In this document: piece after piece, positions 30,403-61,681 of the stretch | Layout of the letters: each line of letters opens with the position of its first letter | Position numbering within the stretch: the first letter of the stretch is position 1 | Assembly: GCF_000759535.1 (NCBI RefSeq) | Contig: NZ_CP009455.1 | Coordinates: forward strand, 2,356,001-2,420,000 | Direction of reading: 5' to 3' | Source: Pseudomonas cremoricolorata | GTDB taxonomy: Bacteria > Pseudomonadota > Gammaproteobacteria > Pseudomonadales > Pseudomonadaceae | DNA length: 64,000 nt | Program-made: the position numbers and the translations under genes | Notes under the pieces: model-generated | Seen by the model: only the letters and a program-made list of their open reading frames with translations | What the model was told of the DNA's origin: nothing | Databases searched by the model: none

Positions 30403-32910
30403 TCAGAACGTACCGCGCAGGGTCAACATGAAGTTGCGCGGCGCGCCATACCAGTTGCCGTAACTGCTGGACTCGACCGTCTGGTAATAGGTTTTGTCGA
30501 ACAGGTTGTTGAGGTTGCCCGCGGCAGTCCAGTGCTCGTCGATACGGTATTCGAGCAACGAGTTCCACACCGCATAACCGGCCTGGGTGAAGTTGTATTC
30601 GTCCTTCGCCGGGCTCAGGGTGCCGTCACCCAGGCGGCGCTGCACCGAGCCTGAGACGTAGTTGGAACTCTGCACCGTGGCGCCCAGCCCGACCTTCCAG
30701 CGCTCAAGCCCCGCCGGTAACTGGTAGGTGGTGAAGAACTTGAACAGGTGCTTGGGCGTTTGCGTGCTCAGCGGCTTGCCGTTGCTGGCACCATCGGCCG
30801 CCTTGGTCTGTTCGTTGATGTTGAAGGTGTAGCCTGCGAACAGCTGCCAACCGGGCATCAGCTCACCGGATACTTCGGCATCGATGCCTTTGCTGACGAT
30901 CTCGCCATCGGCCACGTAGCAGCAGTTGTTCTGGCTGTTCGGGGCGGTTGCGCTGAACACCCTGATCGCCTCGTTCTGACGCTTGACGTAGTACAACGCC
31001 GACGACACGTTCAGCCGTCCGCCGAGCAGCTCACCCTTGCCGCCGAGCTCGTAGGTATCGCCGGTGATGGCCTTGAGCGGTGCGAACGAGCGATCGACAT
31101 ATTCGGTCTGCGGTTTGTAGATCTGCGCATAGCTGGTATAGACCGACCACGCATCGTCGAGCTCGTACACCAACCCGCCGTAGGGGGTGACGATACCGCT
31201 TTCCTTGCCGCCCCGCACGGTGTCGGCGTTGAACGAGGGAACTAATACCCGGTTGAAGCCGTTGAAGTCGGTGTAGCGGGCCCCTGCGATCAGCTTCAGC
31301 GGATCGCTCAACTGCGCCTTGAGCGTGGCGTAGGCGCCGCTCTTGCGGGTGATCCAGGTCGGTGTCTCGTAGTACAGGGGCGGTTTGGCCGGCTCGGGCA
31401 TCGAGCCGATGCTGCCATCGAAGGGGTCGATGGGGACGGCTGAGCCGAAGTCACTGTGGTCGGCGTAGGTGCGGTGACTTTCCGTGTAGTCGACACCCAG
31501 CAGCAGCTCGTGGCTGCGGCCAAGGGCGTCGATGCGGCCGATCAGGTTGCCGTCGAGCAGATCCTGGTCGTTGCTGTAGTCACGAATGAAGCGCTGATAG
31601 GTGCCGCCCGCAGCCAAGGTGGGGTCGATGGGGCCTTCGATCTGCCCTTGGTTCTGCGTGGTCTGGTACTTGCTCTTGGTGTAGCTGGTGTTGAATTCCC
31701 AGGCGTCGTTCAATTGCTGGCGCAGCTTGAGGAAGCCTTCCTTGCGCGTGTAGTTGTTGGTCGACCAGTCGGCCGCCAGCGATGTGCTGCGTGACAGCTT
31801 CAGTGGATCGCCGGTGGTGTAGCGTGGGAAGCCTTCATCCCAGTAGCCGTCCATGTCACGCCATTCGTAGGTGCCGCCCACGGTGACCAGAGTATCCGGG
31901 CTCAGGTCGGCTTCCAGAGTGCCGAATACCACGTGCTTTTCACTGTCGGCGCGGTCGTAGAAGTAGTTTTTGTCTTCATAGGTGACGGCCGCTCGGCCAC
32001 GCAGCTTGCCGTCGAAGCCCAACGGGCCTGTGACATCCACTTCCTGGCGGTAGTTGTTCCAGCTCCCCGCCGAGCTCTGCACGATGACCTGGTTGTGGTC
32101 CAGGGCGCGCTTGCGCACCAGGTTGATGGTGCCGGCCGGCTCGCCGGTGCCGCCATAGAGGCCGTCCGAGCCACGCAGCACCTCGACGTGATCGTACGGG
32201 GTCATGTCCGGCAGGGTGTCGTAGCTCTGCTGGCGCAGAGCCGCGGCGCCGCCATCGGTCTGGATATTGGTCAGCGCGAAGCCGCGCGCCAGGATGCTGG
32301 TGTTGACGTCGTTGCCGCCGGTGGTGCTGATGCCGGTGGTCTGCTCGAGCACCTGGTTCAGGCTGGTCAGGCCTTGATCGTTCATCCGTTGGCGGGTGAT
32401 GGCCGACACCGACTGGGGAATCTCGCGCAGCGTCTGCTCACCCTTGCCGCCAACCTGTGCACTGCCCAGCGCATAACTGCCAGTGCCCTCGGTGACGTTG
32501 CCCAGCACTGCGGCATTGACCAGGGTGGTGCTCAGCTCCAGAGTGCCGGCCTGGGTGTTGCTGGGTTCGAGCACCAGGGTGTGTTCATCGAGCTTGCGCC
32601 AGCTGTAGCCACTGCCTTCGAGCAACTGGTTGAGCGCCTGAGCCAGCGAATAGCGGCCATTGAGCGCCGGGCTGCGGCGTGCCGAGACGTCGCCCGAATT
32701 GAAGATGATGCGCACGTTGGCGGCGTCGGCCAGTTGCGTCAGGGCGCGATCGAGCGGCTGCGCCGCCAGGTGCAGGCTGACCGTACCGGCAGCGGAGGCG
32801 GCCAGAACCGAGATCGGCGTCAGCACTGCGCCGGTTCCGAGTGCCAAGGCCAGGGCCAGTGTCAGGGTATGACCGTGCCGCAGCACGAAGGGGGTGGAGG
32901 TAGCCTGCAT
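30403..32910 (-). CDS. TonB-dependent siderophore receptor with STN signalling domain
   Basis: An 835-residue outer-membrane transducer of the FpvA/FoxA type. After the signal peptide (LALALALGTGAVL) comes an STN domain at about residues 44-115 (HLAAQPLDRALTQLADAANV; NSGDVSARRSPALNGRYS), then the plug (LREIPQSVSAITRQRMNDQG; VEVLRGSDGLYGGTGEPAG) and the barrel ending RNFMLTLRGTF. The STN domain passes the signal of bound ferri-siderophore to the FecR-like anti-sigma factor encoded just upstream, which frees the ECF sigma factor. Gene order fecI-fecR-receptor supports this directly. The siderophore, perhaps a foreign one, is unknown. Confidence 0.94.
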   Translation of the reverse strand: MQATSTPFVLRHGHTLTLALALALGTGAVLTPISVLAASAAGTVSLHLAAQPLDRALTQLADAANVRIIFNSGDVSARRSPALNGRYSLAQALNQLLEGSGYSWRKLDEHTLVLEPSNTQAGTLELSTTLVNAAVLGNVTEGTGSYALGSAQVGGKGEQTLREIPQSVSAITRQRMNDQGLTSLNQVLEQTTGISTTGGNDVNTSILARGFALTNIQTDGGAAALRQQSYDTLPDMTPYDHVEVLRGSDGLYGGTGEPAGTINLVRKRALDHNQVIVQSSAGSWNNYRQEVDVTGPLGFDGKLRGRAAVTYEDKNYFYDRADSEKHVVFGTLEADLSPDTLVTVGGTYEWRDMDGYWDEGFPRYTTGDPLKLSRSTSLAADWSTNNYTRKEGFLKLRQQLNDAWEFNTSYTKSKYQTTQNQGQIEGPIDPTLAAGGTYQRFIRDYSNDQDLLDGNLIGRIDALGRSHELLLGVDYTESHRTYADHSDFGSAVPIDPFDGSIGSMPEPAKPPLYYETPTWITRKSGAYATLKAQLSDPLKLIAGARYTDFNGFNRVLVPSFNADTVRGGKESGIVTPYGGLVYELDDAWSVYTSYAQIYKPQTEYVDRSFAPLKAITGDTYELGGKGELLGGRLNVSSALYYVKRQNEAIRVFSATAPNSQNNCCYVADGEIVSKGIDAEVSGELMPGWQLFAGYTFNINEQTKAADGASNGKPLSTQTPKHLFKFFTTYQLPAGLERWKVGLGATVQSSNYVSGSVQRRLGDGTLSPAKDEYNFTQAGYAVWNSLLEYRIDEHWTAAGNLNNLFDKTYYQTVESSSYGNWYGAPRNFMLTLRGTF

Positions 32911-32999
32911 GTGGGGTATCCGTCATGGAATGTGGGCGTGCGATATGGGAATCATTCGCGCTCACTGGCCACGACGTTTATCGATTGCAAACCTTGCAG

Positions 33000-33971
33000 T
33001 CAGCTCTCGGATTTATTTTTCTCATCGAACAAGACCACGGTCAGCCACGGCAGCCTGACGATTTTTACCGGCTGCGTGCGGCTCAGCACATCGAGCATGG
33101 CGGGCAGGTCGTCGAGGTCGAAGACGCCACTGACCGGGTTGTTCGGCAGTCGCCCGCTGACCACCAGCGCGCCGGGCAGGTAGCGTTCGGTCACCTCGAA
33201 CACCTCGGCCAGGGTCGTGCGGTTGAAGATCAACTTGCCGCGTTGCCAGGCCGCGCCGCTGCTGGGGTCGTACAGGTCGACCGACGAAGGCGCGCGGCCC
33301 TGCTGATACGACACCTGCTGCGACTGTTCGAGACGAACGCGGCTGCCACCGGAGCTGACTTGCACCACGCCCTCGGCCACGCCGACCTGCACCCGGTCGC
33401 GGTGCAGGTCGACGTCGAACCGCGTGCCCACTGCACGTACCTCACCGTCTCCGGCCACCACCACGAACGGTCGCGCCGCATCCTTGCTGACCTGGAACAG
33501 CGCTTCACCCTTGAGCAAGGTGATCTCCCGGCGCTGCGCCGAATAGTCGATGTTCACCGCGCTGGCGCTGTTCAGCCAGACCTGGCTGCCATCGTCGAGG
33601 GTCAGCGTGCGGCGCTCACCGGTGGCCGTTGCCTGATCGGCGGTCAGCACCCTGGCTGGCCCGTGCAGGCCAACCACGGCCAGGGCAGCAACACAGGCCG
33701 CCAGTGCCGCCCAGCGGCGCACGCGCCGGGTTCGGCCAGGTGCCGGCGCCACTTGCGCGGACAGGTTCGGCGGCTGGGTATGGCCCAGGGTGTGCCATAG
33801 CTGTTCGACTTCATCAGCAGCTGCTGCGTGCGCCGCGCTGCGCTGGCGCCATTGCTGGAAAGCCTGCCAGTCGGCCTGGCTGGCGTTGCCGGAATTGAGC
33901 TGCACCCAGCGTTCCAGGGCCTGCTCGTCGAGCTCGGTGCGGGTGGGCTGTGGGTTCATCGGGTCAGGCAT
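33000..33971 (-). CDS. FecR-family anti-sigma/sigma regulator
   Basis: A 323-residue single-pass inner-membrane regulator. An N-terminal cytoplasmic DUF4880 region (EQALERWVQLNSG, WQAFQQWRQRS) binds the sigma factor, one membrane helix lies near residue 100 (WAALAACVAALAVVGL), and the periplasmic FecR domain follows (LTLDDGSQVWLNSAS; GTRFDVDL). It relays the receptor STN signal to the sigma factor. The frame is open to 34055; ATG 33971 gives the usual FecR start. It lies between the sigma gene and the receptor gene, all on the minus strand. Confidence 0.92.
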   Translation of the reverse strand: MPDPMNPQPTRTELDEQALERWVQLNSGNASQADWQAFQQWRQRSAAHAAAADEVEQLWHTLGHTQPPNLSAQVAPAPGRTRRVRRWAALAACVAALAVVGLHGPARVLTADQATATGERRTLTLDDGSQVWLNSASAVNIDYSAQRREITLLKGEALFQVSKDAARPFVVVAGDGEVRAVGTRFDVDLHRDRVQVGVAEGVVQVSSGGSRVRLEQSQQVSYQQGRAPSSVDLYDPSSGAAWQRGKLIFNRTTLAEVFEVTERYLPGALVVSGRLPNNPVSGVFDLDDLPAMLDVLSRTQPVKIVRLPWLTVVLFDEKNKSES

Positions 33972-34018
33972 GGTCGGCACTCGGTGAACGGCAGGCTGCG
34001 GGCAGAGGGATGCGCATT

Positions 34019-34537
34019 CTAAAGCCCCTCGGACTGACGCAGCCAATCGCGGCAATGACGCATGGCTTGCATGATGTATTTGCCCACCATGCTTTCCGAG
34101 ACGCCCAGGCGTTCGGCGATCTGGCCGTGGGTCAGGCCTTCCAGGCGATTGAGCAACAGCGCCAGCCGGGCATTGCTCGGCAGCACCGCCAGGGATTGTT
34201 CCAGCTGCTGCACCGCTTCACGGTCGAGAAAGCGCTTTTCCGGAGAGGCCAGGTGGTCACACAGCTCGTCCGGTGCGGTATCCGGGCTGTGCAGGCCTGA
34301 GCGAAGGCGCTCCTGGCGCAGGCGATCGAGGGCCAGGTTGCCAGCGACCCTGAAGATGAAGGCGCGCGGTTCGAGGATGTGCGAGGTGTCGGCGAGCCTG
34401 GACAGGCGCAGGAAGGTTTCCTGCGCCACGTCAGCAGCGTTTTCCACATTGCCCAGACGCCGGGCGAGGAAGGCCAGCAGATCAGCGTAATGCTCCTGGA
34501 AGGAAATCAGCAGATGATCGGCAGTGGAGGATGTCAT
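34019..34537 (-). CDS. FecI-type ECF RNA polymerase sigma factor
   Basis: A 172-residue iron-starvation sigma factor. Region 2 is NAADVAQETFLRLSR plus PRAFIFRVAGNLALDRLR, and region 4 is LNRLEGLTHGQIAERLGVSESMVGKYIMQAMRHC. It should direct transcription of the receptor gene when the cognate siderophore is present. A Fur-box-like site lies 38 bases upstream of its start, consistent with repression in iron-rich cells. Confidence 0.94.
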   Translation of the reverse strand: MTSSTADHLLISFQEHYADLLAFLARRLGNVENAADVAQETFLRLSRLADTSHILEPRAFIFRVAGNLALDRLRQERLRSGLHSPDTAPDELCDHLASPEKRFLDREAVQQLEQSLAVLPSNARLALLLNRLEGLTHGQIAERLGVSESMVGKYIMQAMRHCRDWLRQSEGL

Positions 34538-34654: not shown

Positions 34655-36133
34655 TTAGCGAAACTCGGCCGTCTCGGCCAGGGCCGAACAGGCCAGGGCC
34701 TTGGCGCCTTCCCAGTCGTATTCACTGTGCACCCGCGACAGCGCGACGAAGTGCGGGCCGGAGTAGAACATCTCGTACTGCAGATGACGCGAGCCGAACT
34801 CCGAACCCATCGCATCCCAGGCCAGCTTCATCACCTGCACCCGTTCCAGGGGCGAAGCGACGCTCGAGTACTGGGTCTGTTCCATCAGCGCGCGGGCTTG
34901 CGGGTTGGCCAGGTCGTCGACGCTGGAAGGCAGCATGATCACCCCGCCGCCAGCCAGTTTGCGCAGGGTTTCGATGAATTTCGGATACACCGACTGCGCC
35001 ACCGCCTGGCACATGTACAGGTGCTTCTTGTCGGGCACCACGTACTTGCCTTGTGTCACCGGGCAGTGGATCAGGCTCTTGAACAGCCCTTCGATCATCA
35101 GCGTGTTGCAGGCCATTTCGCCAAGCAGCTCGCGCACCGCCGGGAAATCGCTGACCCCGGTAATTTCCGTCATGCGCTGGGCAAGCCCTGTCAGGAAATG
35201 CAGCTTGGTGGTCAGGCGCGCAAGGCTTTGCGTGTCCATCAGCACCTCGGCGGCAGTGCTGTGGAACTGGCGCCGGCACATGCCGGTGTCGCCGTAGACG
35301 AACAGCCGCTCCCAGGGCACCAGCACGTTGTCGAAGTAGATCAGCGCGTCGTTCTCATCGAAGCGGCTGCTCAGCGGATGGTCGAAGCGGTTGCTGCCCT
35401 CGGCGTACGACACCCGGGAAAGAATCTTGATGCCGGGGGTGTTCAGCGGCAGCGCGAAGGACAGCGCGTAACGCTCATCGACCCCCGGCTTGAGCGGGTT
35501 TTGCACACCCACCAGCACTTCATCGGCCAGCACCGCGGCGGTGCCGAGCATCTTCGCGCCTGTGACGATCACCCCCGCATCGGTTTCTTTCACCACACCT
35601 AGGGTGTGATAGAGGTTCTGCGCATGCTCGCCGGGGCTGCGCGAGCGGTCGCCCTGGGGATTGACGATGGTGTAGGTGAGGTACAGGTCGCGTTCGCGGG
35701 CGTAGGCAAAGTAGCTTTTCAGCGCGGCAGCGCGATCAGGGCAGTGCGCTTCGAACACCTCGATGTGGGTGAGCATGCCGCTCAGCGCCGCCGAGACATG
35801 ATCCGGGCTGCGCCCCAGCCACCCCAGGCTCTGTCGCGCCCAGGCCAGGGACGCGTGCGCGCGCCCGAGCAGTTGCTCGTGGCGCTGCGGCAGTTCCCAG
35901 GCCTTGCTGACCCGGCGCTGCCCATCGAGGTCGAAGGTCATGTCCTCCAGGTGGCTGGCCTGGTAGTCGTACAGCCCGGCCACCGAGGCGACCGCGCCGG
36001 AAAAGGCCGGATGCTGGCTGTGCCGGGTCAGGCACTGGCCGTTGATGAATACCTGGCGGCCATCGTCGATGGCGCTGAGGTACTGCTGGCCGGTTCGCGC
36101 CTGCGCTGCGCCTGAACGAGGGGATGTGCTCAT
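34655..36133 (-). CDS. HpaB-family flavin-dependent aromatic hydroxylase
   Basis: A 492-residue member of the 4-hydroxyphenylacetate 3-monooxygenase large-component family, which uses reduced FAD from a separate reductase to hydroxylate phenols. Seen features: DRSRSPGEHAQNLYHTLGVV near 160, VTGAKMLGTAAVLADEVLV near 190, DNVLVPWERLFVYGD near 278 and a long helical C-terminal half. It could also be compared with PvcC. No HpaC-type reductase lies in the operon. ATG 36133 overlaps the stop of the preceding gene by 4 bases (ATGA), so the two monooxygenases are translationally coupled. It is the last gene of the five-gene operon. Confidence 0.87.
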   Translation of the reverse strand: MSTSPRSGAAQARTGQQYLSAIDDGRQVFINGQCLTRHSQHPAFSGAVASVAGLYDYQASHLEDMTFDLDGQRRVSKAWELPQRHEQLLGRAHASLAWARQSLGWLGRSPDHVSAALSGMLTHIEVFEAHCPDRAAALKSYFAYARERDLYLTYTIVNPQGDRSRSPGEHAQNLYHTLGVVKETDAGVIVTGAKMLGTAAVLADEVLVGVQNPLKPGVDERYALSFALPLNTPGIKILSRVSYAEGSNRFDHPLSSRFDENDALIYFDNVLVPWERLFVYGDTGMCRRQFHSTAAEVLMDTQSLARLTTKLHFLTGLAQRMTEITGVSDFPAVRELLGEMACNTLMIEGLFKSLIHCPVTQGKYVVPDKKHLYMCQAVAQSVYPKFIETLRKLAGGGVIMLPSSVDDLANPQARALMEQTQYSSVASPLERVQVMKLAWDAMGSEFGSRHLQYEMFYSGPHFVALSRVHSEYDWEGAKALACSALAETAEFR

Positions 36134-37380
36134 AGTTCGAGAAACTCCAAGGGGATGCCCAGCTCGGCACGGCCGACGTAGGTGGCGAACGATTCCCACT
36201 GCGCGCCGACGTGGCCGCGGTACATCGCCACGTCGCTGAAATAGCGCAGCATGCGCGTGTCGCAACGGGCCTGGGAGGTGCCCGAGGTACGGAACAGCAA
36301 CTCGACCGCCTCGCAGGCCTGGCGACCGGCCTGTTGCAACGCACCCCAGGCGCGCACGTTGTGCGCCACGCTGATCGGCTCGCGGGTCTCACACCAGCGT
36401 TGGGCGAGGCGTTGATGCTGCTCGCAGGTATGCAGCAGGGTGGCCTCGGCGGCATCGGTGAGGGCCAGGGCCTGGCCGAAGGCGCGCTGGTACTGCACGT
36501 CTTCGGCGCGCTTACGGCTCGGGTCGAGGGGGTGCGGCAGCAGTTCGATCAGCTCGCGGTATTCATCCAGGGCCGCCCGCGCCGCGCCGATCACCGGTGC
36601 CAGCAGGTTGGCGTGGTAGGGCAGCATCAGGTAACCCAGGTACAGCGGGTTGCCGTGCAGGCGCGTACCGGGGGTGCCGTCGCTGACGTTCTGGTTGGCG
36701 TAGAAGCCGGCGAACGGCACGGCGGCGCGTTCGGGGACGAACACATCGTCCAGGCGGATACTGTTCGAGCCACTGGCGCGCATGCCGAGAATCTCGCTGC
36801 CGCCCCAGTCGTTGAGGATGCAGAAGTCGGCGCGTGGCACCAGGCACGCCAGTGGTTCGCCTGCTGCCCCGGCGTGCTCGTCGATGACCGTGACGATGGC
36901 GTGGGTGGAATAGGTGACGCCGGTGCAGTAGGCGAAGGTGCCGCTGACCCGGTAGCCGCCCTCGACCCGCGTACAGGTGCCGCCGGGAAACGCCCGGTGC
37001 GGGGCGATGAAGTGGCCATCGCTGCCGAACACTTCGTCCTGCACCGCCTGTGGCCAGTGCGAGGCAAGGGTCAGGGCGTGGCCGGCGGCCAGGGTCAGGC
37101 TCCAGCCCAGTGCCGGATGGCCCTGGGAAATCTCGATCATGACCCGGTAAAAATCGCCCAGGCTCATCTCGTGTCCACCATAACGACGCGGTTGCAGCAA
37201 TCGGTAGAAACCGTGCTCGCGGAACCAGTGGTGCATGGCCGGGCTGTAGGTGCCCTGCGAGTCGCTCACTTCCTGTTCGGCGCGCAGCTTGTGGCGTATG
37301 TCGCGCGCGAGCTCGAGATACTCTTCTACTGTCCGGTCGGCGACGGGCGCGGCCGTGACGTGGGTACTTGTTTGGCCCAT
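36130..37380 (-). CDS. Acyl-CoA-dehydrogenase-like flavin monooxygenase (group D)
   Basis: A 416-residue protein with the acyl-CoA dehydrogenase fold: N-terminal helices, a middle beta domain (GGYRVSGTFAYCTGVTYSTH near 150; LRASGSNSIRLDDVFVP-type segment near 215) and a C-terminal helical bundle. The sequence is closer to the monooxygenases of this fold (HsaA, IacA, DszC and SfnC types) than to true dehydrogenases, and no CoA pathway genes are near. Possible jobs are hydroxylation of an indole or phenol, or oxidation of sulfur. AGGA precedes the ATG, and it lies 26 bases after the lyase gene. Confidence 0.84.
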   Translation of the reverse strand: MGQTSTHVTAAPVADRTVEEYLELARDIRHKLRAEQEVSDSQGTYSPAMHHWFREHGFYRLLQPRRYGGHEMSLGDFYRVMIEISQGHPALGWSLTLAAGHALTLASHWPQAVQDEVFGSDGHFIAPHRAFPGGTCTRVEGGYRVSGTFAYCTGVTYSTHAIVTVIDEHAGAAGEPLACLVPRADFCILNDWGGSEILGMRASGSNSIRLDDVFVPERAAVPFAGFYANQNVSDGTPGTRLHGNPLYLGYLMLPYHANLLAPVIGAARAALDEYRELIELLPHPLDPSRKRAEDVQYQRAFGQALALTDAAEATLLHTCEQHQRLAQRWCETREPISVAHNVRAWGALQQAGRQACEAVELLFRTSGTSQARCDTRMLRYFSDVAMYRGHVGAQWESFATYVGRAELGIPLEFLEL

Positions 37381-37406
37381 GGAAATGATCCTGATATCGG
37401 GGTGGG

Positions 37407-38804
37407 TCAGATTTCTTTGAAACGTGCGGTGAACTGGCGCAGGACCGCCGGCTCGTAGGTGAAGTCCAGTGGCCGCAGGCTGGCGGCGCGCTGCACCACC
37501 TCGATCAGCGAGTCGGCCACGTAGTCCATGTGGTTGTCGGTGTAGGTGCGCCGTGGAATGGTCAGGCGCATCAGCTCGAACAACGCCGGCTCCTGCTCGC
37601 CGGTCTGCGGGTGGCGGCCCATCATCAGCGAGCCGATTTCCGTGGCACGCACGCCGCTTTCCAGGTACAGCGCGTTGACCAGCATCTGTGCCGGGAAATG
37701 ATGGCCGGGCACATCCGGGCGAATCTTGCCGGCATCGACGAACACCGCATGCCCGCCCACCGGGGTCTGGATCGGTACCCCGGCCTTTTGCAGGCGCTCG
37801 GCGAGGTACTCGACCTGGGCGATACGGCTGGCCAAGTGATGCACGTCGCAGGCCTCGTCCAGGCCCACCGCCATCGCTTCGAGATCACGCCCCGCCAGGC
37901 CGCCGTAAGTGATGAAGCCTTCCAGCGGCACGCAGCGCAGTTGCGCAGCGCGCAGCAGCTCGCCGTCTTCGCGGAAACAGCACAGACCACCGATGTTGAC
38001 CATGGCGTCCTTCTTCGCCGACAGGGTGAAGATGTCGGCGCAGTCGAACATCTCGCGCACGATCGTGTGGATCGACTGCTCGCGGTAACGCGGATCGCGC
38101 TGCTGGATGAAGTAGGCGTTCTCGGAAAAACGCGCCGCATCGATCACCACCGGAATGCCATGACGACGGGCCATGGAGGCGGCTTCGCGCATGTTGTCCA
38201 TCGCCACCGGCTGGCCACCGACGCTGTTGCAGGTGATGGTGATGACCACCGCCGCCACCTGTTCGGCACCGAGCCGTTCGATGTCGCTGGCCAGGGCGGC
38301 GAGGTCGAAATTGCCTTTCCAGTCGTCATGCCGGGCGGTGTCCAGGGCAGCCGGGCAGATCAGGTTCCTGACCATCGCGCCGGCGATTTCCACGTGCGCC
38401 TTGGTGGTGTCGAAATGGTGGTTGGAGATGAACACCGGCGCTGTCGCGCCGCGTTGCCGGGCGCGCTCGACCAGGCAGGGGAAGAGGATCTGCTCGGCGC
38501 CGCGGCCCTGGTGCACGGGGATGGTGTGGGGGAAACCGAACAGGCGCTCGACGGTATCGCTGAGCTTGAAGAAGCTGCGGCTGCCGGCGTACGACTCATC
38601 GGCCGACATCATCGCGCTCCACTGCCGGTCGCTCATGGCGCCGGTGCCGCTGTCGGTCAGCAGGTCGATGAACACGTCGTCGGCGCGCAGCAGGAATGGG
38701 TTCAGGCCGGCCGTGTGCAGCGCTTGCTGGCGGTAGTCGGGGGTGGTGGTCCTGAGTGGCTCAACCATCTTGATGCGATACGGTTCAGGCATACGAACGG
38801 GCAT
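37407..38804 (-). CDS. Tryptophanase/tyrosine phenol-lyase family beta-eliminating lyase
   Basis: A 465-residue PLP enzyme, collinear with E. coli TnaA and with tyrosine phenol-lyase (TPL). The PLP lysine is K265 in SAKKDAM; Y72, R101 (HQGRGAE) and R413 (LMRLTIPR) are kept. Specificity positions are mixed: D132 (FDTT) as in TnaA where TPL has Thr, I390 (EIGS) as in TnaA where TPL has Arg, but Q457 where TnaA has His463 and TPL has Phe448. Expected chemistry is elimination at C-beta of an amino acid, giving pyruvate, ammonia and a leaving group, or the reverse. GGAGG lies 8 bases before the ATG. Substrate not predictable. Confidence 0.9.
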
Positions 38805-38852
38805 TTTCAGGGCCTCCAGGGCACTCGAAGCGAATAGGGTATTGGCGTTTGA

Positions 38853-39545
38853 TCAACTGTTGACGATGCGCCGCAGCACTTGCCACTGCGCGTCGCTGAG
38901 GGTCAGGCGGTCTTCCTGGTGCAGCACCGAATTGATGCCGACTTTGGCCCGTGCGCCATGGGTACGCAGGTACGCCTCGACGAACTGCGGCTGGTCGGCC
39001 AGAAACGCGATGTCCAGCTCGACCATTTCGCGCACCACCAGCAGCGGTACCGGTGAGCGCAGCGGATTGAAGGTGTCGCTGCGCAGGCCGGGCTTGGGGC
39101 AGTGCGAATAGAACTCGCCGAGCATCAGCCCGGCTGCGAGGAACTGCGGCTTGAGCAGTTCATGGTAATGGTTGACCTGGGCCGGGTCGTCCAGGCCATG
39201 CAGCACGGCGACGATGGTCTTGAACTGGCTGGCATTACCCTGTTGCGGCGCGTTGCCCTTGAAGCGCGAGATCAGGCTCAGTAGATCCGCGCAGATCGCG
39301 GCCTGCTCGCGTTCGGCAAAGGCGATGTCCACCAGCCAGAAGGTTTCGCGCTTGATCGCTGCCGGTGTCCATGGGCACACCGCCCCGCTGCGGCCCAGTT
39401 CGGGATGCGGGTTGCACAGGTAGGCGTGCGACCACTGCGCGATCTGCGTCATCTGCGTCGAGCAGTGCTCGCCGGGGCCCTGCAAGGCTTGGGCGATGGG
39501 GACAAGCGTGAGCTGCGTGGCAGAAGTGTTGTCACGTTCCATCAT
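38853..39545 (-). CDS. Uncharacterised protein of the lyase operon (possibly DUF6875)
   Basis: A 230-residue soluble protein. The most distinctive segment is NPHPELGRSGAVCPWTP near residue 46, followed by a PLRSPVPLLVVREMVELD block near 165. The combination of GRSGxVCP with a compact alpha/beta domain reminds me of the family now called DUF6875, but I cannot confirm this. No signal or membrane segment. GAGGA precedes two adjacent ATG codons (39545 and 39542); either may be used. It lies 39 bases after the MFS gene and 48 before the lyase, so it belongs to the operon and may be a new enzyme of the pathway. Confidence 0.75.
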   Translation of the reverse strand: MMERDNTSATQLTLVPIAQALQGPGEHCSTQMTQIAQWSHAYLCNPHPELGRSGAVCPWTPAAIKRETFWLVDIAFAEREQAAICADLLSLISRFKGNAPQQGNASQFKTIVAVLHGLDDPAQVNHYHELLKPQFLAAGLMLGEFYSHCPKPGLRSDTFNPLRSPVPLLVVREMVELDIAFLADQPQFVEAYLRTHGARAKVGINSVLHQEDRLTLSDAQWQVLRRIVNS

Positions 39546-39584
39546 GACGTCCTCAGAGGGTCGATTGATCAGGCCGGGCGAACC

Positions 39585-41108
39585 TCAGCGCTCGGCACCG
39601 GGCGCGGCTCCTGCCGCGCAAGCAATGTCAGGTTCGGCCAGCGCCCAGCGACTGAGCAGCGCTGCCACCAGGGTCAGAGCGCCCAGGCCGTAGGTCAGGG
39701 TGGCGAAGGCCGCGCTGTAGCACTCGGCGAGGGCGTGGGCAGACACGTTCGCAGCGTTGGCCTGGGCGCTGCTGAAGCTTCCCGTGGCCAGCTCCGCAGC
39801 CACCGCTGTGGCGCTTTCCGGGTTCAGCAGTGTGTCCAGTTGCCCCTGCAACAGGCTGTTGAGCAGGGCCAGTGCAGCGGCCACGCACACCGCCTCGCCG
39901 CAGGCGCGCATGGTGGTGAAGATGCCCGTGGCCATGCCGGCGCGCTCCACCGACACCACCTTGATCGACAGATCGTCCATCAGCCCCCAGGGAACCGCCG
40001 AGCCGATGCCGATCAGCGCCATGGGCAGGCACAGCGTCAGCCAGCTGGCGCCCACCGGCACTTGCGCCAGCCACAGCAGGCCGCCGGCGGCCAGTAGCAA
40101 CCCGGCGAAACACAGGTTGGCCGGGGCGATGTAGCGCGCCATCAGCGCGGAGAGGAACGGCACCACCAGCATCGGCAGGGACAGGCCGAGCATCAGCAGC
40201 CCGGCCTGGCCGGTGCCCAGGCCCTCGACGCCCACGAAGCGCAGTGGCAGCAGAATCAGCAGCACGATGAAGCTCAGCGCGGTGGCAATCGGCAGCAATT
40301 GCACGCCGACGAAACGTTTGCTGGCGAACAGCGACAGGTCGAGCATTGGCCGGGCCTGGCGCTGCTCGATACCAATGAACAGCGCCAGCATCAGCAGCGC
40401 CGCGCCCACCAGGCTGAGCACCGTGAGGCTGCGCCAGCCGTGCGCCGGCACTTGCATGATGGCGAAGGTCAGCAGCACCAGCATGGCGCTGAAACTCAGC
40501 ACCCCGGCCCAGTCAAGGTGGCGCGCGCCAGGGTCGCGGCTTTCGCGCATGCGCGGCGCCGCCAGCAGCCAGGCCAGGCCGCCAAAGGCTGCACCGAGCA
40601 GGAAGATCGAGCGCCAGTTGAAGAACTCCACCAGCGCCCCGGAAATCACCGGGCCGAAGGCCAGACCGAGGCCGAACGCGGTGCCCAGCAGACCGAAGGC
40701 GCGGGTCCGCGCATGGCCTTCATATTCCTGGGCCAGGGTTGCCGAGCCGCCGGCCATGGTCAGCGCCGCGGCGATGCCTTGCAGGCCGCGAATCAGGTCG
40801 AGGAACACCACGTTGGGCGCGCAACTGACCACCACCGAGAGCACCGTGAAGCTACCGATGCCCCAGCAGAACATGCGCTTGCGTCCATACAGGTCGGCCA
40901 GGGTCCCGGCGGCCATGATTGCGCTGCCAAAGCTCAAGGCGAAGGCGTTGACCACCCAGGCCAGCGCCACCGGGCCGCCACCCAGGTCGTCGCCAATCGC
41001 CGCCAGGGCCATGGCCGGGCCGGTGTACTCCAGAGGCAGGATCAAACCGGCGGTGCATACCGCGATCAACACCAAGGCTCGGCGGGTGGTGTCTTGCTGG
41101 GGTTGCAT
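39585..41108 (-). CDS. MFS exporter, DHA2/EmrB-like, first gene of the lyase operon
   Basis: A 507-residue inner-membrane transporter with about 14 hydrophobic segments. Seen: FGSAIMAAGTLADLYGRKRMFCWGIGSF (motif A-like) near 55, TMAGGSATLAQEYEGHARTRAFGL near 117, and APRMRESRDPGARHLDWAG in the central loop. Such pumps expel drugs or a pathway's own product. A strong GGAGG precedes the ATG. It heads the five-gene operon and is divergent from a LysR gene, so the exporter probably removes the product, or a toxic substrate, of the lyase and monooxygenases. Confidence 0.88.
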   Translation of the reverse strand: MQPQQDTTRRALVLIAVCTAGLILPLEYTGPAMALAAIGDDLGGGPVALAWVVNAFALSFGSAIMAAGTLADLYGRKRMFCWGIGSFTVLSVVVSCAPNVVFLDLIRGLQGIAAALTMAGGSATLAQEYEGHARTRAFGLLGTAFGLGLAFGPVISGALVEFFNWRSIFLLGAAFGGLAWLLAAPRMRESRDPGARHLDWAGVLSFSAMLVLLTFAIMQVPAHGWRSLTVLSLVGAALLMLALFIGIEQRQARPMLDLSLFASKRFVGVQLLPIATALSFIVLLILLPLRFVGVEGLGTGQAGLLMLGLSLPMLVVPFLSALMARYIAPANLCFAGLLLAAGGLLWLAQVPVGASWLTLCLPMALIGIGSAVPWGLMDDLSIKVVSVERAGMATGIFTTMRACGEAVCVAAALALLNSLLQGQLDTLLNPESATAVAAELATGSFSSAQANAANVSAHALAECYSAAFATLTYGLGALTLVAALLSRWALAEPDIACAAGAAPGAER

Positions 41109-41159
41109 GAAAATCGCCTCCGTCCCTGAGCAGTAGACGGGGGATGGTATTTGAGGGAT

Positions 41160-41169
41160 AAGTGCACTT
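41160..41169. promoter_or_regulatory. Palindrome in the MFS/LysR divergent promoter region
   Basis: AAGTGCACTT is a perfect 10-base palindrome within the 99-base gap between the divergent MFS and LysR starts. It is 39 bases before the LysR ATG and could be part of a LysR T-N11-A operator. Inferred from position only. Confidence 0.4.
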
Positions 41170-41207
41170 GAAGGGGAGAATATTCAAAAGAGAATTGCGG
41201 TTAGTGC

Positions 41208-42116
41208 ATGAATGATGACATTTCGCTATGGCGCCTGTTTTTCCGTATCGTCGAGCGCGGCAGCCTGACCAAAGCCGCTGACGATCACGATCTTGAGCCG
41301 TCTTCAGTGAGCCGGCGCATCTCTTCGCTGGAGAAGCGCCTGAACGTACGCCTGCTCAATCGCACCACCCGGCAGGTGACCATGACTGAGGCCGGGTCGC
41401 GCGCTTATGAACTGATGCGCCCGCTGATCGATGAAATGGAAGGGGTGATCGCCGACCTCGACGGCGCCTCGCCGTTGATTGCCGGCACCATCCGCATGAC
41501 CGCGCCGGTCAACTTCGGTGAGCGGCATCTGGTGGGCTGGTTGACGGCATTCCAGAAGCAGCATCCGCAGATTCTGCTCGACCTGGTGCTGTCGGACGCG
41601 CGCCTCGATCTGCGTGGCGAAGCCATCGACCTGGCGCTGCGGGTGGGCGAGCCGCCGGTGTCGGACATGCTGATCCGGCGCATCGGCTGCATGCCCAGCG
41701 TCCTCTGCGCCAGCCCCGCCTATGTGCGTGCCCACGGCCTGCCGGAGAAACCCCAGGACCTCACCAGCCACCGCGGCATCCTTTATTCGCTCGGCCAGGA
41801 GCGCCACCGCACTCGCCTGCGCCTGAACCGCGACGGCAAGGAAGTCAGTGTCGAGTTGCAGGGGGTGTTCTACCTCAACAACGTCGGCGCGATTCTGCAG
41901 GCCGTGCGCCAGGGCGCCGGCATCCATCCGGGGCCACGCTGGCTATTCCAGGAAGGGATCGACTCCGGTGAGCTGGTCGAGTTGTTGCCCAAATGGAGCC
42001 TGACCGGTCTGCCGGCGCACCTGGTGCGCCTGAACAACCGCTATGAGCCCAAGCGGGTGAAGGCTCTGGAGGATTGGATCGAGCAGTGTTGGGTACGGGA
42101 GATGGGGGAGCATTGA
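41208..42116 (+). CDS. LysR-family regulator (CrgA type), likely controls the lyase operon
   Basis: A 302-residue regulator with a winged helix (FFRIVERGSLTKAADDHDLEPSSVSRRISSLEKRL) and an effector domain of the CrgA-like subgroup (GTIRMTAPVNFGERHLVGWL; DLALRVGEPPVSDMLIRRIG). It is transcribed away from the MFS-lyase-monooxygenase operon, the standard layout for a LysR activator or repressor of that operon. The inducer is unknown but is probably the pathway substrate. Confidence 0.9.
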   Translation: MNDDISLWRLFFRIVERGSLTKAADDHDLEPSSVSRRISSLEKRLNVRLLNRTTRQVTMTEAGSRAYELMRPLIDEMEGVIADLDGASPLIAGTIRMTAPVNFGERHLVGWLTAFQKQHPQILLDLVLSDARLDLRGEAIDLALRVGEPPVSDMLIRRIGCMPSVLCASPAYVRAHGLPEKPQDLTSHRGILYSLGQERHRTRLRLNRDGKEVSVELQGVFYLNNVGAILQAVRQGAGIHPGPRWLFQEGIDSGELVELLPKWSLTGLPAHLVRLNNRYEPKRVKALEDWIEQCWVREMGEH

Positions 42117-42169: not shown

Positions 42170-44362
42170 TCAGAAGGTGTACTTGGCCGTCAGCATCAGG
42201 TTGCGCGGCGCTCCGTAGTTGTCGCCGCCGTACTGGTAGGAGCTGGAGATGGACGAGTAGTACTTGCGGTCGAACACATTGTTGGCGTTTAGCTGCAAGT
42301 CGAGGTGCTGGTTGACCTGGTAACCGGCCATGAGATCGGTGACGGCATAGCTGCCCTGTTGCAGACGGTAGTTGTTGCCGTCGGCCAGCTCGATGTCGTT
42401 GTACAAACGGCTCTGCCACGACAGCGTGCCGCCGACTCGCAGTTTCTCCAGGTCGCCCTGGAAGCGGTAGTTGGTGGTCAGCTTGAACAGGTGTTCAGGC
42501 ACGTCGGTATCGAAGCGCTGGTTGACGCTTCCCGGATTATTGTCGTCCTTGAGGGTATGCACGCGAGCGTAGGTATAGCCTGCGCCGACCTGCCAGCGGT
42601 CGGTCAGCGCGCCTTGCAGTTCCAAGTCGACGCCCTGGCTGCGCACTTGGCCAGAGGCTTCGTAGCACTGATTCAATCCGCGAGGGCAGACTGCAGTGCT
42701 GGTCTGCACCGCTCGGTTTTCCTGATCGACACGGAACAGCGCCGCGCTGGCGTTCAAGGCACCGTCGAAGTATTCGCCCTTTATCCCCACTTCGTAGTTC
42801 TTGCCCACGATAGGCCGCACGGGTGTGCCTGCCTCATCACGTTCAGATTGCGGGGTAAAGATGTCGCTGTAGCTCACGTACACCGAGTGATGCTGGTCGA
42901 GGTCGTAGATCAAGCCGGCATAGCGGGTCAGGTTGCGGGTGACTTTATAGTCGCCCTCGCCATCACGGTCGTCATAGTCGTACCAGTCCAAGCGGCCACC
43001 GACGATCAGCTTGAGCGGATCAGCCAGGCTGAAGCGGCTGGTGACATAGACGCCTTCCTGGGAGGTAACTGCTTGTGTAGCGCTGCCAAGCTTGGTGAAG
43101 TCAGGTTTGCCTGCCTCCAGCGGATAACCCGACTGGTTGTACGGAGAGTATTGCTGCTCCGTCATGTCATAAATCCGTTTGCTGGCGCCGACCACCAGTT
43201 CGTGGGTGCGACCGAATGCCTGGAACGGCCCACTGGCAAACGCATCCACGCCAGCCTGTTTCTCGTCATAGGTGGCTTTGTAGATGGTGCGGGCCAGGCG
43301 TTGGTCCGGAGTGAAGCGTGACTGATAGGAGCCTCGGAACATCGCATCCTGCTCGGCGTAGTTGGCGTTGAGCTGCAACTTCCAGTCGTTGGCCAGTTGA
43401 TGGCGCAACTCGGCGAACACCGTGTTGATCTCTTGATCCTTGCTCTCCCAGTCGGTGCCAGGGTTGTAGGAGCGCGGCAGGTGCAGGTGGCGGCCGTCCA
43501 GGCCGACCATCGACGAGCCCCAGAAGTAATTGGTCTTGTCCTTCTGGTTGGAGAACCCCAGGGTCAGTGTGGTGCTGTCGGTCAGATCTGCTTCGGTGAC
43601 TGCGTAGAACAAGCCGTGACGCTGCATGGCGTTGTCGACGAAGCTGTTGGCATCGTTGTAGGAAGTCACCACCCGGCCGCGCCAAGTGCCACTGCCGTTG
43701 AGCGGGCTGGAGGCATCCAGCTCGCCGCGGTAGTCGTCCCAACTGCCGGCGGCACCGGTGAGGGTCACTTTCTGCTCAGCCAGCGGCCGTTTGCGCACCA
43801 GGTTTACGGCTGCCGAGGGGTTGCCGGCCCCGGTCACCAGGCCCGTCGCTCCGCGCACCACTTCCACGCGGTCGAACATCGCCAAGTTAGGCTGCGCGCC
43901 GACGCTGACGCCGTTGTAACCGCTGGGGATGCCGTCGTACATCAGATTGTCGATGTCGAAGCCTCGGGCGGTGTAGGTCTGCCTGCCCGGGCCGTCGTTA
44001 TAGTTCAGATAAACGCCAGGGGTTGCCCTTATCACATCATTGATACTGGTCATCCCCTGATCGTCCATCCGCTGGCGGGTAATCACCGTCACCGCCTGGG
44101 GCGTTTCGCGCTGGGTCAGCGGCAGCTTGGTGGCTGTCGACATCGCTCCCGAGGTGTACGACTCACTGCCCTCGGTGGTGCTGCCCAGGTGGGTGTTGAT
44201 GATGTCGGTGGCGCCCAGTTCGATGACCCCGCTCGCAGGCGTAGCCGTTGCCGGTTCGGTGTCCTCGGCCAGGGCCGGGGTGGCGGTGGCCATGCAGACC
44301 ACCAGCGCGAGCAGGTTGAACGGCGGGCGAGGGCGTAGCGGGAGAGAGCAGGACATGGGCAA
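42170..44362 (-). CDS. TonB-dependent siderophore receptor without STN domain
   Basis: A 730-residue outer-membrane receptor: signal peptide (LLALVVCMATATPALA), plug domain (LTQRETPQAVTVITRQRMDDQG; YTARGFDIDNLMYDG; VEVVRGATGLVTGAGNPSAAVN) and a barrel ending APRNLMLTAKYTF. These features place it with catecholate/hydroxamate-type ferri-siderophore receptors. It lacks the N-terminal signalling domain. A Fur-box-like sequence lies 27 bases before the start, so iron repression is likely. Substrate unknown; it ends close to the convergent LysR gene of the lyase operon. Confidence 0.93.
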   Translation of the reverse strand: MPMSCSLPLRPRPPFNLLALVVCMATATPALAEDTEPATATPASGVIELGATDIINTHLGSTTEGSESYTSGAMSTATKLPLTQRETPQAVTVITRQRMDDQGMTSINDVIRATPGVYLNYNDGPGRQTYTARGFDIDNLMYDGIPSGYNGVSVGAQPNLAMFDRVEVVRGATGLVTGAGNPSAAVNLVRKRPLAEQKVTLTGAAGSWDDYRGELDASSPLNGSGTWRGRVVTSYNDANSFVDNAMQRHGLFYAVTEADLTDSTTLTLGFSNQKDKTNYFWGSSMVGLDGRHLHLPRSYNPGTDWESKDQEINTVFAELRHQLANDWKLQLNANYAEQDAMFRGSYQSRFTPDQRLARTIYKATYDEKQAGVDAFASGPFQAFGRTHELVVGASKRIYDMTEQQYSPYNQSGYPLEAGKPDFTKLGSATQAVTSQEGVYVTSRFSLADPLKLIVGGRLDWYDYDDRDGEGDYKVTRNLTRYAGLIYDLDQHHSVYVSYSDIFTPQSERDEAGTPVRPIVGKNYEVGIKGEYFDGALNASAALFRVDQENRAVQTSTAVCPRGLNQCYEASGQVRSQGVDLELQGALTDRWQVGAGYTYARVHTLKDDNNPGSVNQRFDTDVPEHLFKLTTNYRFQGDLEKLRVGGTLSWQSRLYNDIELADGNNYRLQQGSYAVTDLMAGYQVNQHLDLQLNANNVFDRKYYSSISSSYQYGGDNYGAPRNLMLTAKYTF

Positions 44363-49448: not shown

Positions 49449-50054
49449 TCAGCCCTGCGGCCGGTTCATCTTGAACAGCTCGCCCAGTTCGAAATAGTCA
49501 GCCGGGCCGCCGCCACGCAAAATCGGCTGGGCCGCCGCGGTGTCGTAGATGCCGTCCTTGAGCAGGTGCTCGGCAATGTGCACCGCCACCACTTCGCCCA
49601 GAATCAGCCAGCTGGGCACCAGGGCCTGATCGGCACGCTTGAGCTGCACGATCTGGCTCACCTTGCACTCGAACGACACCGGGCTTTCCCCCACCCGCGG
49701 CACCGCGACGACTCGCGAGGCCGCCGGGGTCAGCCCGCTGAGCTGGAATTCATCGACCTCGGCCGGCACCGCCGCGCAGCTCTGGTTCATCGCCTCGGCC
49801 AAGGGCCGGGTGGCCAGGTTCCAGACGAACTCGCCGGTCTGCTCGATGTTGTTCAGGCTGTCTTTGCGCCCGACACTGCAGAAGCCGACGATCGGCGGAA
49901 TGTAGTTGAAGGCGTTGAAGAAGCTGTACGGCGCCAGGTTCAGCCGGCCTTCGCGGTCGTGGGAAGAAATCCAGCCAATCGGCCGTGGACCGACGATGGC
50001 GTTGAACGGGTCGTGGGGCAGGCCGTGGCCTTTGGCGGGTTCATAGAAGTGCAT
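49449..50054 (-). CDS. Flavin reductase-like FMN-binding protein
   Basis: A 201-residue split-barrel flavoprotein of the flavin reductase-like family (IVGPRPIGWISSHDREGRLNLAPYSFFNAF near 20; SVGRKDSLNNIEQTGEFVWNL near 65). Members bind FMN; some reduce free flavin for two-component monooxygenases, others have unrelated roles. The frame is open to 50075, but ATG 50054 gives the start MHFYEPAKGHG that I recall in homologues. It could in principle supply the two monooxygenases at 34655-37380, but it is 12 kb away and more likely independent. Confidence 0.87.
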   Translation of the reverse strand: MHFYEPAKGHGLPHDPFNAIVGPRPIGWISSHDREGRLNLAPYSFFNAFNYIPPIVGFCSVGRKDSLNNIEQTGEFVWNLATRPLAEAMNQSCAAVPAEVDEFQLSGLTPAASRVVAVPRVGESPVSFECKVSQIVQLKRADQALVPSWLILGEVVAVHIAEHLLKDGIYDTAAAQPILRGGGPADYFELGELFKMNRPQG

Positions 50055-50127
50055 CGCACGCAGCCTTGTCGGCAAGGGAAGAGCTGCCTAGTGTGCCAAG
50101 GCTTGGCGTGGCTGGAAATGCTCTGTA

Positions 50128-60673: not shown

Positions 60674-61681
60674 TCAGCGGCGTCGCGATGCAGGAAAGGC
60701 GATGCTCAGAGTAGTCTGCGCCAGCGGGTGAGTGCTGGCGTCGAAGAAGTCCAGCGCGCAGCCTACCGCCGCCAGGCGCTGGCTGAAATGACTCTGCTGG
60801 TTGTGCACCGAGGCCTCGCCCAAGGGGCGAATGGCCACGGCGATGCGCGCTGGCCGCGCCTGGATGATGGCCTCCAGCAGGTGCTCGTCGGCGCTGTCCA
60901 GATGCTGGCCGAGCAGGCACAGGTTGCCGTCCTCGCCAGCCAGCTGCGCCAGGCACCAGCTCAAGTAGTCGCTGCTGCGAATAGCTTGAAGCTTCTGCGC
61001 GCTGGGCCCCTCGTTGATGAACAACGGCACTTCCCCGGGCACGTTCACGGCCGCGCCATCGAGCAGCTCGCTGCCCACTGCGCCACGCCTGCGCGTGGTG
61101 CCGTCGGCCTGGCGTAGCAGATGCAGGCCTCCGTGCAGGTGCAGCACCCGCGTGCCGGCGCCGGCGGTGCGGCGCACATCGAAGCTGCCTTGCTCATCGA
61201 ACAGTTCGGCGAACCCCGACGGGTCGTGCTCCATGGCCCACGGCAGGATCAGGTCGTAATTGCTGGTGTAGACGCTTTGGTAACGGCGCAGTTCGGCGTT
61301 GAGCTGGCCCAGGGTCACCGGCGGCAGCAGTGCCAAGGGCAGGTGCACGGCGCGCAAGGCGTGAATCAGCGCCTGTTTGATCGAGTAGTAGCGGTTCAGC
61401 GGCGCGGTGGAGTTGATCGCCAGTGCGGCATTGCTGCGGATGGTGGTGTTCAGCGCGCTCAGCACCGGCTCGAACAGCTCGGTGCCCAATGCCTTGAACA
61501 GTGCCTGGTCGCTGATCGCCAGGGCCTTGTGCCGTACCTGCTGCGCCTGCTCGAACAGCGAGTAGTAACCGAACGGCTTCCACAGGGCGCGGCTGGCGCC
61601 GTTGCCCAGCAGCAGGGCCGGGTAGGCGTGACGGTCGGAGAGCTCGGCCCAGGAGGGCAGGTGGGCATCGCGTGCTGGCAT
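60674..61681 (-). CDS. DUF4917 family protein with SIR2-like motifs
   Basis: A 335-residue cytoplasmic protein. Landmarks: LLLGNGAS near residue 24, TSNYD at 139-143 and HLHGGLH at 181-187. This GNG...TxNYD...HLHG series is the hallmark of SIR2-like NAD-binding folds, including the NADase effectors of several antiphage systems, and matches what I recall of DUF4917. It stands alone: no effector-sensor partner is adjacent, and it ends 5 bases from the convergent methyltransferase gene. Enzymatic NAD hydrolysis is possible but unproven. Confidence 0.77.
   Translation of the reverse strand: MPARDAHLPSWAELSDRHAYPALLLGNGASRALWKPFGYYSLFEQAQQVRHKALAISDQALFKALGTELFEPVLSALNTTIRSNAALAINSTAPLNRYYSIKQALIHALRAVHLPLALLPPVTLGQLNAELRRYQSVYTSNYDLILPWAMEHDPSGFAELFDEQGSFDVRRTAGAGTRVLHLHGGLHLLRQADGTTRRRGAVGSELLDGAAVNVPGEVPLFINEGPSAQKLQAIRSSDYLSWCLAQLAGEDGNLCLLGQHLDSADEHLLEAIIQARPARIAVAIRPLGEASVHNQQSHFSQRLAAVGCALDFFDASTHPLAQTTLSIAFPASRRR

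Follow-up and report, generated by a model that had tools for sequence, protein, structure and literature searches.

A conserved group of six genes in Pseudomonas cremoricolorata probably constitutes a small biosynthetic operon, with its regulator, that makes an oxidised indole from L-tryptophan by means of a heme-dependent oxygenase, an altered tryptophanase and a pair of flavin hydroxylases, and then exports it. The group lies in a 64,000-nucleotide stretch (positions 2,356,001 to 2,420,000 of contig NZ_CP009455.1, assembly GCF_000759535.1; hereafter the window) of a single-contig genome of 4.78 Mb, and all coordinates below are those of the window unless a locus is named. A previous sequence-only reading had described five open reading frames (ORFs) on one strand at 34655..41108, separated by gaps of 26-48 bases or overlapping, with a divergent LysR gene. 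This layout was confirmed: the ORF listing places all five on the minus strand, the distances remeasured from the exporter gene to the HpaB-like gene are 39, 48, 26 and -4 bases, and the LysR gene is found at 41208-42116 (+). The features are as follows.

41208..42116, + strand: LysR-family regulator (Pfam LysR_substrate and HTH_1), divergent and belonging to the conserved unit
41109..41207, no strand: LysR/MFS intergenic region, presumed promoter/operator, with conserved blocks when the five loci are aligned
39585..41108, - strand: putative exporter of the major facilitator superfamily (MFS), DHA2/EmrB-like, 507 amino acids (aa) (Pfam MFS_1, E 1.8e-34)
38853..39545, - strand: DUF6875 protein, 230 aa, proposed heme-dependent tryptophan hydroxylase (PF21780; invariant Cys57-Pro58)
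37407..38804, - strand: tryptophanase-family pyridoxal phosphate (PLP) lyase, 465 aa, proposed hydroxytryptophan indole-lyase (Beta_elim_lyase, E 1.1e-83)
36130..37380, - strand: flavin monooxygenase of the acyl-CoA-dehydrogenase (ACAD) fold, HsaA/C2-HPAH/XiaF-like, 416 aa (Acyl-CoA_dh_2, E 3.9e-12)
34655..36133, - strand: HpaB-like flavin monooxygenase, 492 aa (HpaB_N, E 9.5e-81; HpaB, E 1.9e-55)

To find the same gene set in other genomes had been proposed as a check of the operon, and a synteny comparison of 12 window proteins with 12 fetched loci revealed it complete in four further Pseudomonas genomes: P. cremoricolorata (one locus fetched twice, L016 and L025), Pseudomonas sp. UBA6562 (likewise, L017 and L026), P. 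fluorescens P5A (L027) and G354 (L018). The LysR, MFS, DUF6875, lyase, ACAD-like and HpaB-like genes stand in the same order in 5/5 genomes, the window included. In every locus the LysR gene adjoins the MFS gene, and the LysR and MFS proteins of the other four are 72-98% and 74-96% identical, respectively, to those of the window. Across the five loci the successive distances are 38-45, 44-48 and 26-31 bases, followed by -4 in four of them and +12 in G354, and the gene lengths are kept. The ratio of nonsynonymous to synonymous substitution rates (dN/dS) ranged from 0.03 to 0.31 in 15 gene comparisons covering three of the other loci (G354 was left out). The arrangement of the gene set is beyond chance, given its constant order, spacing and gene lengths in 5/5 loci and the low dN/dS, a sign of purifying selection. 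The flanks outside the six-gene block differ among the five genomes.

We next consider the distribution of the DUF6875 protein and the lyase in 398 Pseudomonas genomes. DUF6875 matches were found in 11 of them: identity reached at least 70% in G000, G335, G164 and G354 and 51% in G188, and the other six matches were weak. Lyase matches were found in 20, full-length at 85-100% identity in four and at most 34% identical in the remaining 16. The four genomes with the full-length lyase are the same four that contain DUF6875 at 70% or more; therefore, among the genomes sampled, full-length lyases of the tryptophanase type occur only alongside a DUF6875 gene. The own genome contains a single tryptophanase-family match, the operon lyase itself. 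It should be added that six Pseudomonas genomes (L036-L041) carry full-size, distant lyase relatives (30-34% identity), which are probably other beta-eliminating lyases.

The 230-residue protein had been described as being of unknown function, which has to be corrected. It scores 179.2 bits against PF21780 (cut-off 24.5), the sole profile that it matches above cut-off, and this family, DUF6875, is now tied to a function. According to the available text of PMC13307353, which cites a preprint, DUF6875 proteins are heme-binding, L-tryptophan-oxidising enzymes, and one of them, ZigI, is the proposed C7 hydroxylase (PMC13307353). Cys57 is invariant in all 45 DUF6875 sequences that we aligned. In a structure comparison with VIA-align, the best match of the predicted fold was AglA, at a level that indicates the same overall fold. 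AglA is a Cys-ligated heme amino-acid hydroxylase acting on an arginine derivative (PMC12866846, available part). Cys57 falls at a plausible position relative to the heme-ligand place of AglA, Cys44, but the structural aligner yielded no residue map. A search of PDB sequences with the DUF6875 alignment profile gave one match, at chance level (E 0.34). Taken together, the DUF6875 protein is most likely the first enzyme of the pathway, a tryptophan oxygenase that would depend on heme.

Comparison with known systems revealed that: (i) AglA, a thiolate-heme arginine-derivative N-hydroxylase of the YqcI/YcgG family (PDB 9ub3, 9ub5), is only 10% identical to the DUF6875 protein over the aligned part and differs from it in its substrate and Pfam family (PF08892), the heme of DUF6875 being only proposed (PMC12866846, available part); (ii) the heme-dependent tryptophan hydroxylases of the BifE type likewise hydroxylate free tryptophan in bacteria, but belong to the TDO-like family and are described as a sub-family of tryptophan-2,3-dioxygenases (TDO) (PMC13285481, available part), whereas the protein studied here matched PF21780 alone above cut-off; while (iii) in the zigralone (zig) cluster of Micromonospora zingiberis a DUF6875 protein is also proposed for C7 hydroxylation of a tryptophan-derived indole, within a biosynthetic cluster (PMC13307353). 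The zig cluster contains an aminotransferase, a prenyltransferase, P450s and a thiamine diphosphate enzyme, a set that the operon here does not match; unlike this operon, it encodes no flavin monooxygenase according to its description and has no tryptophanase-type lyase listed (PMC13307353). The zig pathway retains the side chain as indole-pyruvate, whereas the operon studied here is proposed to cut it off (PMC13307353).

The lyase had been assigned to the tryptophanase/tyrosine phenol-lyase family. It matches Beta_elim_lyase, and its pocket residues are of the tryptophanase type and not of the tyrosine phenol-lyase type. The protein scores below the cut-offs of both equivalog models, with 650.8 bits for tryptophanase (TIGR02617, cut-off 825.8) and 517.8 bits for tyrosine phenol-lyase (TIGR02618, cut-off 720.7). 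Among PDB entries, Proteus vulgaris tryptophanase comes closest to it (E 4e-176), with homology over the full length. When mapped on Escherichia coli TnaA, it keeps Lys270 (here Lys265, the PLP lysine), Tyr74, Arg230, Arg419, Asp137 (here Asp132) and Ile396 (here Ile390), and thus shares the PLP Lys and the Asp, Ile, Tyr and Arg residues of the E. coli and P. vulgaris enzymes. Ile396 of TnaA is, we assume, the position of the phenol-binding Arg381 of tyrosine phenol-lyase, and the presence of Ile390 rather than Arg at this presumed site is read through E. coli TnaA, with no tyrosine phenol-lyase sequence in the alignment. Unlike TnaA, the lyase belongs to an oxygenase operon, and no tryptophan permease gene is part of the conserved unit.

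One residue of the pocket is altered: His463 of E. coli TnaA (His458 in Proteus) is Gln457 in the lyase. In the Proteus enzyme this residue bonds the Asp contacting N1 of indole and, in one chain, N7 of 7-aza-tryptophan as well; the H458A mutant retains 1.6% of kcat on L-tryptophan, and its kcat/Km on S-ethyl-cysteine is 10-fold higher (PMC11301627, available part). A change at this residue faces the side of the substrate with N1 and C7, which would fit an extra group on C7; given the gain of the same mutant on S-ethyl-cysteine, it could also signal some other substrate. Since a tryptophanase pocket is combined with an altered residue at the indole edge, the lyase points to a modified, hydroxylated tryptophan as its substrate, and not to the unspecified aromatic or thiol compound proposed from the sequence alone. 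The action of tryptophanase on a hydroxytryptophan has a precedent, the conversion of 5-hydroxytryptophan to 5-hydroxyindole (PMC7857600, available part).

To see how widespread this change is, we inspected position 463 in the window lyase and the 120 best of 8000 scored homologs: His was found in 102, Gln in 16 and Leu in three. All Gln and Leu lyases fall in one clade of 21 (support 1.0), together with two His lyases, from Photorhabdus temperata and Xenorhabdus doucetiae. Seven of the eight named Gln-type species of this clade, the window excluded, are also named among the 120 DUF6875 matches listed of 207 (P. fluorescens, P. gingeri, Pseudomonas sp. NPDC089734, X. bovienii, Xenorhabdus sp. 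SGI240, X. nematophila and X. vietnamensis, but not X. griffiniae), compared with none of the four His- or Leu-type species (P. temperata, X. doucetiae, X. mauleonii and X. szentirmaii) among the same 120; the names are those of cluster representatives, and the species are related to one another. As a separate observation, the lyases P0144 (X. mauleonii) and P0147 (X. szentirmaii) carry Leu where others have the indole-edge His, and the usually strict Asp137 is exchanged for Glu in both (P0144 as aligned, P0147 as read); perhaps they act on yet another substrate.

The families given for the two flavoenzymes in the sequence-only reading are supported. The ACAD-like protein matches Acyl-CoA_dh_2, and its nearest solved structures are HsaA (3-HSA hydroxylase), C2-HPAH and XiaF. 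HsaA and C2-HPAH are phenol hydroxylases. A His in the MYRGH stretch occupies the position of a His in HsaA and C2-HPAH which we take to be catalytic, and is kept in 14/14 aligned sequences. In contrast to HsaA, the protein is far below the cut-off of the HsaA equivalog (150.7 bits, cut-off 450), and its operon has no reductase gene. The HpaB-like protein contains both Pfam domains, HpaB_N and HpaB, of the 4-hydroxyphenylacetate 3-monooxygenases. HpaB relatives act on phenols, and Arg100, Tyr104 and His142 (Thermus numbering) are presumably the phenol-contacting residues. The equivalent of Arg100 is kept as Arg108, while Tyr104 and His142 are replaced by His112 and Tyr154. This Tyr/His swap distinguishes the protein from usual HpaB: 5/5 cluster orthologs have Arg, His and Tyr, whereas five of five other Pseudomonas HpaB proteins, from a draw of 119 genomes, have Arg, Tyr or Phe, and His. 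Its scores are also below both cut-offs (HpaB-1, 329.9 of 480.2 bits; HpaB-2, 269.5 of 885.2 bits). No flavin reductase gene was found within the operon. The genome contains five flavin-reductase-family matches, of which the one closest to the unit, at 49449-50075 (-) and some 7 kb past LysR, is a possible but unlinked partner of the flavoenzymes.

The sequence-only reading had let the lyase release a compound that two flavoenzymes oxidise and the pump exports. This general logic of one operon-like set stands; what changes is that the DUF6875 oxygenase is now put first and that the lyase substrate becomes a hydroxylated tryptophan. Thus, it can be hypothesized that the DUF6875 protein, a small enzyme with a Cys-ligated heme, would add a hydroxyl group to the benzene ring of L-tryptophan, with C7 as the best guess, and that the lyase, re-tuned by the His-to-Gln change, would then convert hydroxytryptophan to hydroxyindole, pyruvate and ammonia. 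The ACAD-like and HpaB-like enzymes, as reduced-flavin hydroxylases, would put one or two further oxygens on the phenolic ring and give a dihydroxyindole/quinone or an indoxyl-type product, using reduced flavin supplied by a reductase encoded elsewhere. The product would be exported by the DHA2-type MFS pump under the presumed control of the divergent LysR regulator. The C7 position is less secure than a hydroxyindole derived from tryptophan, and the product is predicted only as an oxidised hydroxyindole.

In our estimate it is unlikely that the lyase takes plain L-tryptophan and that free indole is then the compound on which the DUF6875 protein and the flavoenzymes act, giving indoxyl, isatin or an indigo-like product in the manner of the Acinetobacter indole oxygenase or XiaF. 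The retained Lys265, Asp132, Ile390 and other tryptophanase residues checked would suit such a lyase, and the ACAD-like enzyme is related to XiaF; plain indole, however, is not a phenol, the kind of compound on which HpaB relatives act. A flavoprotein oxygenase that turns indole to indigo is known (PMC4577076, available part), but the DUF6875 literature consulted concerns tryptophan or indole-pyruvate and not free indole (PMC13307353), and the loss of the His matters for L-tryptophan, as the Proteus H458A mutant shows.

A little less probable is a role in detoxification or catabolism, in which the operon would degrade or expel an external aromatic amino acid or indole-type compound sensed by LysR. 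LysR genes beside oxygenase genes are common in catabolism and the pump is of a drug-efflux type, but the conserved unit, which ends at the HpaB-like gene in all five loci, lacks genes for ring cleavage, for a CoA ligase and for a dedicated importer. Indole oxidation is itself known as a detoxification (PMC4577076, available part). We give still less weight to another amino-acid substrate, with the lyase cleaving an S-substituted cysteine or a tyrosine-type compound and the DUF6875 protein oxidising something other than tryptophan. The gain of Proteus H458A on S-ethyl-cysteine, the database name cysteine desulfhydrase borne by some lyase relatives and the arginine-derived substrate of AglA are in line with it. 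However, the tyrosine phenol-lyase score is far below its cut-off and also below the tryptophanase score, the presumed phenol-binding Arg position is Ile390, as in E. coli TnaA, both flavoenzymes come from phenol-hydroxylase families, and DUF6875 proteins are reported to oxidise tryptophan (PMC13307353). The fluopsin-, mangotoxin- and 7-hydroxytropolone-type clusters of Pseudomonas were dropped as candidates, without sequence comparison, because none is known to us to combine DUF6875 with a tryptophanase-like lyase.

The biosynthesis of an oxidised indole, the reading that we favor, may extend beyond Pseudomonas. Xenorhabdus appears in protein tables (entries clustered at 90% identity) with close lyases as well as DUF6875 proteins, and with ACAD proteins at 49-51% identity. 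All three proteins were listed for X. vietnamensis (contig size 410,291), DUF6875 and lyase for Xenorhabdus sp. SGI240 (8,655), DUF6875 and ACAD for X. khoisanae (204,436) and Xenorhabdus sp. DI (152,779; locus tags ID858_05375 and ID858_05365), and lyase and ACAD for X. nematophila (96,116). Pseudomonas sp. NPDC089734 (241,415) and another contig of 8,825 also had all three. Equal contig sizes and neighbouring locus tags, weaker evidence than a read locus, suggest that the genes listed for each of these contigs lie together, and the six-gene set thus seems to occur in part in Xenorhabdus. A more specific pathway, common to Pseudomonas and the insect-associated Xenorhabdus, is put forward tentatively and is rather doubtful as a whole: a heme tryptophan 7-hydroxylase would form 7-hydroxy-L-tryptophan, a dedicated hydroxytryptophan indole-lyase would release 7-hydroxyindole, and two flavin hydroxylases would yield an exported indole catechol or quinone, maybe a pigment, signal, iron ligand or antibiotic.

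That no described Pseudomonas pathway has this set of genes, as had been stated, agrees with our literature searches, which gave no characterised match, although subscription papers were mostly beyond reach and the DUF6875 preprint might list the operon. In the same searches no dedicated hydroxytryptophan indole-lyase turned up, and no title was found on this operon in the P. cremoricolorata literature or on biosynthetic genes for 7-hydroxyindole. The latter compound has been added in tests for antimicrobial and antibiofilm activity (PMC12073863, available part). The proposed pathway would give a testable role to a 'hypothetical protein' of the DUF6875 family, linked to a lyase whose active site carries one telling change, and, if true, would reveal a genetic source of hydroxyindoles in bacteria.

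DUF6875 genes were also found outside this setting. In six further loci (L019-L024) the DUF6875 genes are distant (22-50% identity) and the remaining enzymes of the operon are missing; there is a sigma-like match in L019 and a LysR-like one in L020. In L019 the DUF6875 gene (9581-10495), about 50% identical to that of the window, lacks a neighbouring lyase or flavoenzymes, and by eye its surroundings are chemotaxis/motility-like. In a class-level draw of 369 genomes, a DUF6875 match was found in the own genome alone; the enterobacterial marker PF06899 gave no match in any of the 60, 79, 51 and 80 of these genomes scanned with it. A small order (three genomes) scanned with the lyase gave no match. 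On plasmids, DUF6875 was found in 61 of 72,556 records, 42 of Rhizobium and 16 of Streptomyces, all below 60% identity. The family is thus present in at least Pseudomonadota and Actinomycetota. On the symbiotic plasmid p42d of Rhizobium etli (L030, 7887-8582), a DUF6875 gene adjoins a YbaK-family gene a few kb from nodD3/nodD2. On a Streptomyces plasmid (L031, 7920-12480), one lies near trpA-, trpC- and trpF-like genes and genes of the class V aminotransferase fold and the acyl-CoA-dehydrogenase family, perhaps another tryptophan-oxidation cluster; the trp-like neighbours agree with the tryptophan-based reading favored here.

Some details of the locus remain to be mentioned. The ATG of the HpaB-like gene at 36133 overlaps the stop of the ACAD-like gene by 4 bases; this start was chosen because orthologs begin at the same ATG, and a longer ORF from TTG 36265 is unneeded. 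The best NCBIfam model for the MFS protein is efflux_EmrB, with a score below the model cut-off. No consensus sigma-70 site was found in the intergenic region 41109..41207, and consensus scans for promoters and terminators gave about the shuffled level (2 against a mean of 1.1 and 2 against a mean of 4.1, respectively). On the two sides of the unit, the window (30403-34537 and 42170-44362) and likewise the P. cremoricolorata locus carry two FauA/FhuE-like TonB receptors and a sigma/FecR pair, for which the fetched UBA6562, P5A and G354 stretches gave no match (E 1e-8). Iron uptake, considered on account of these neighbours, was not retained as a conserved link, since they flank the unit in only these two of the five genomes. 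Elsewhere in the window, at 61536-61616 (-), ARAGORN reported a tRNA-like element whose anticodon has four bases; it lies across a long ORF (60674-61681, -) and is probably spurious.

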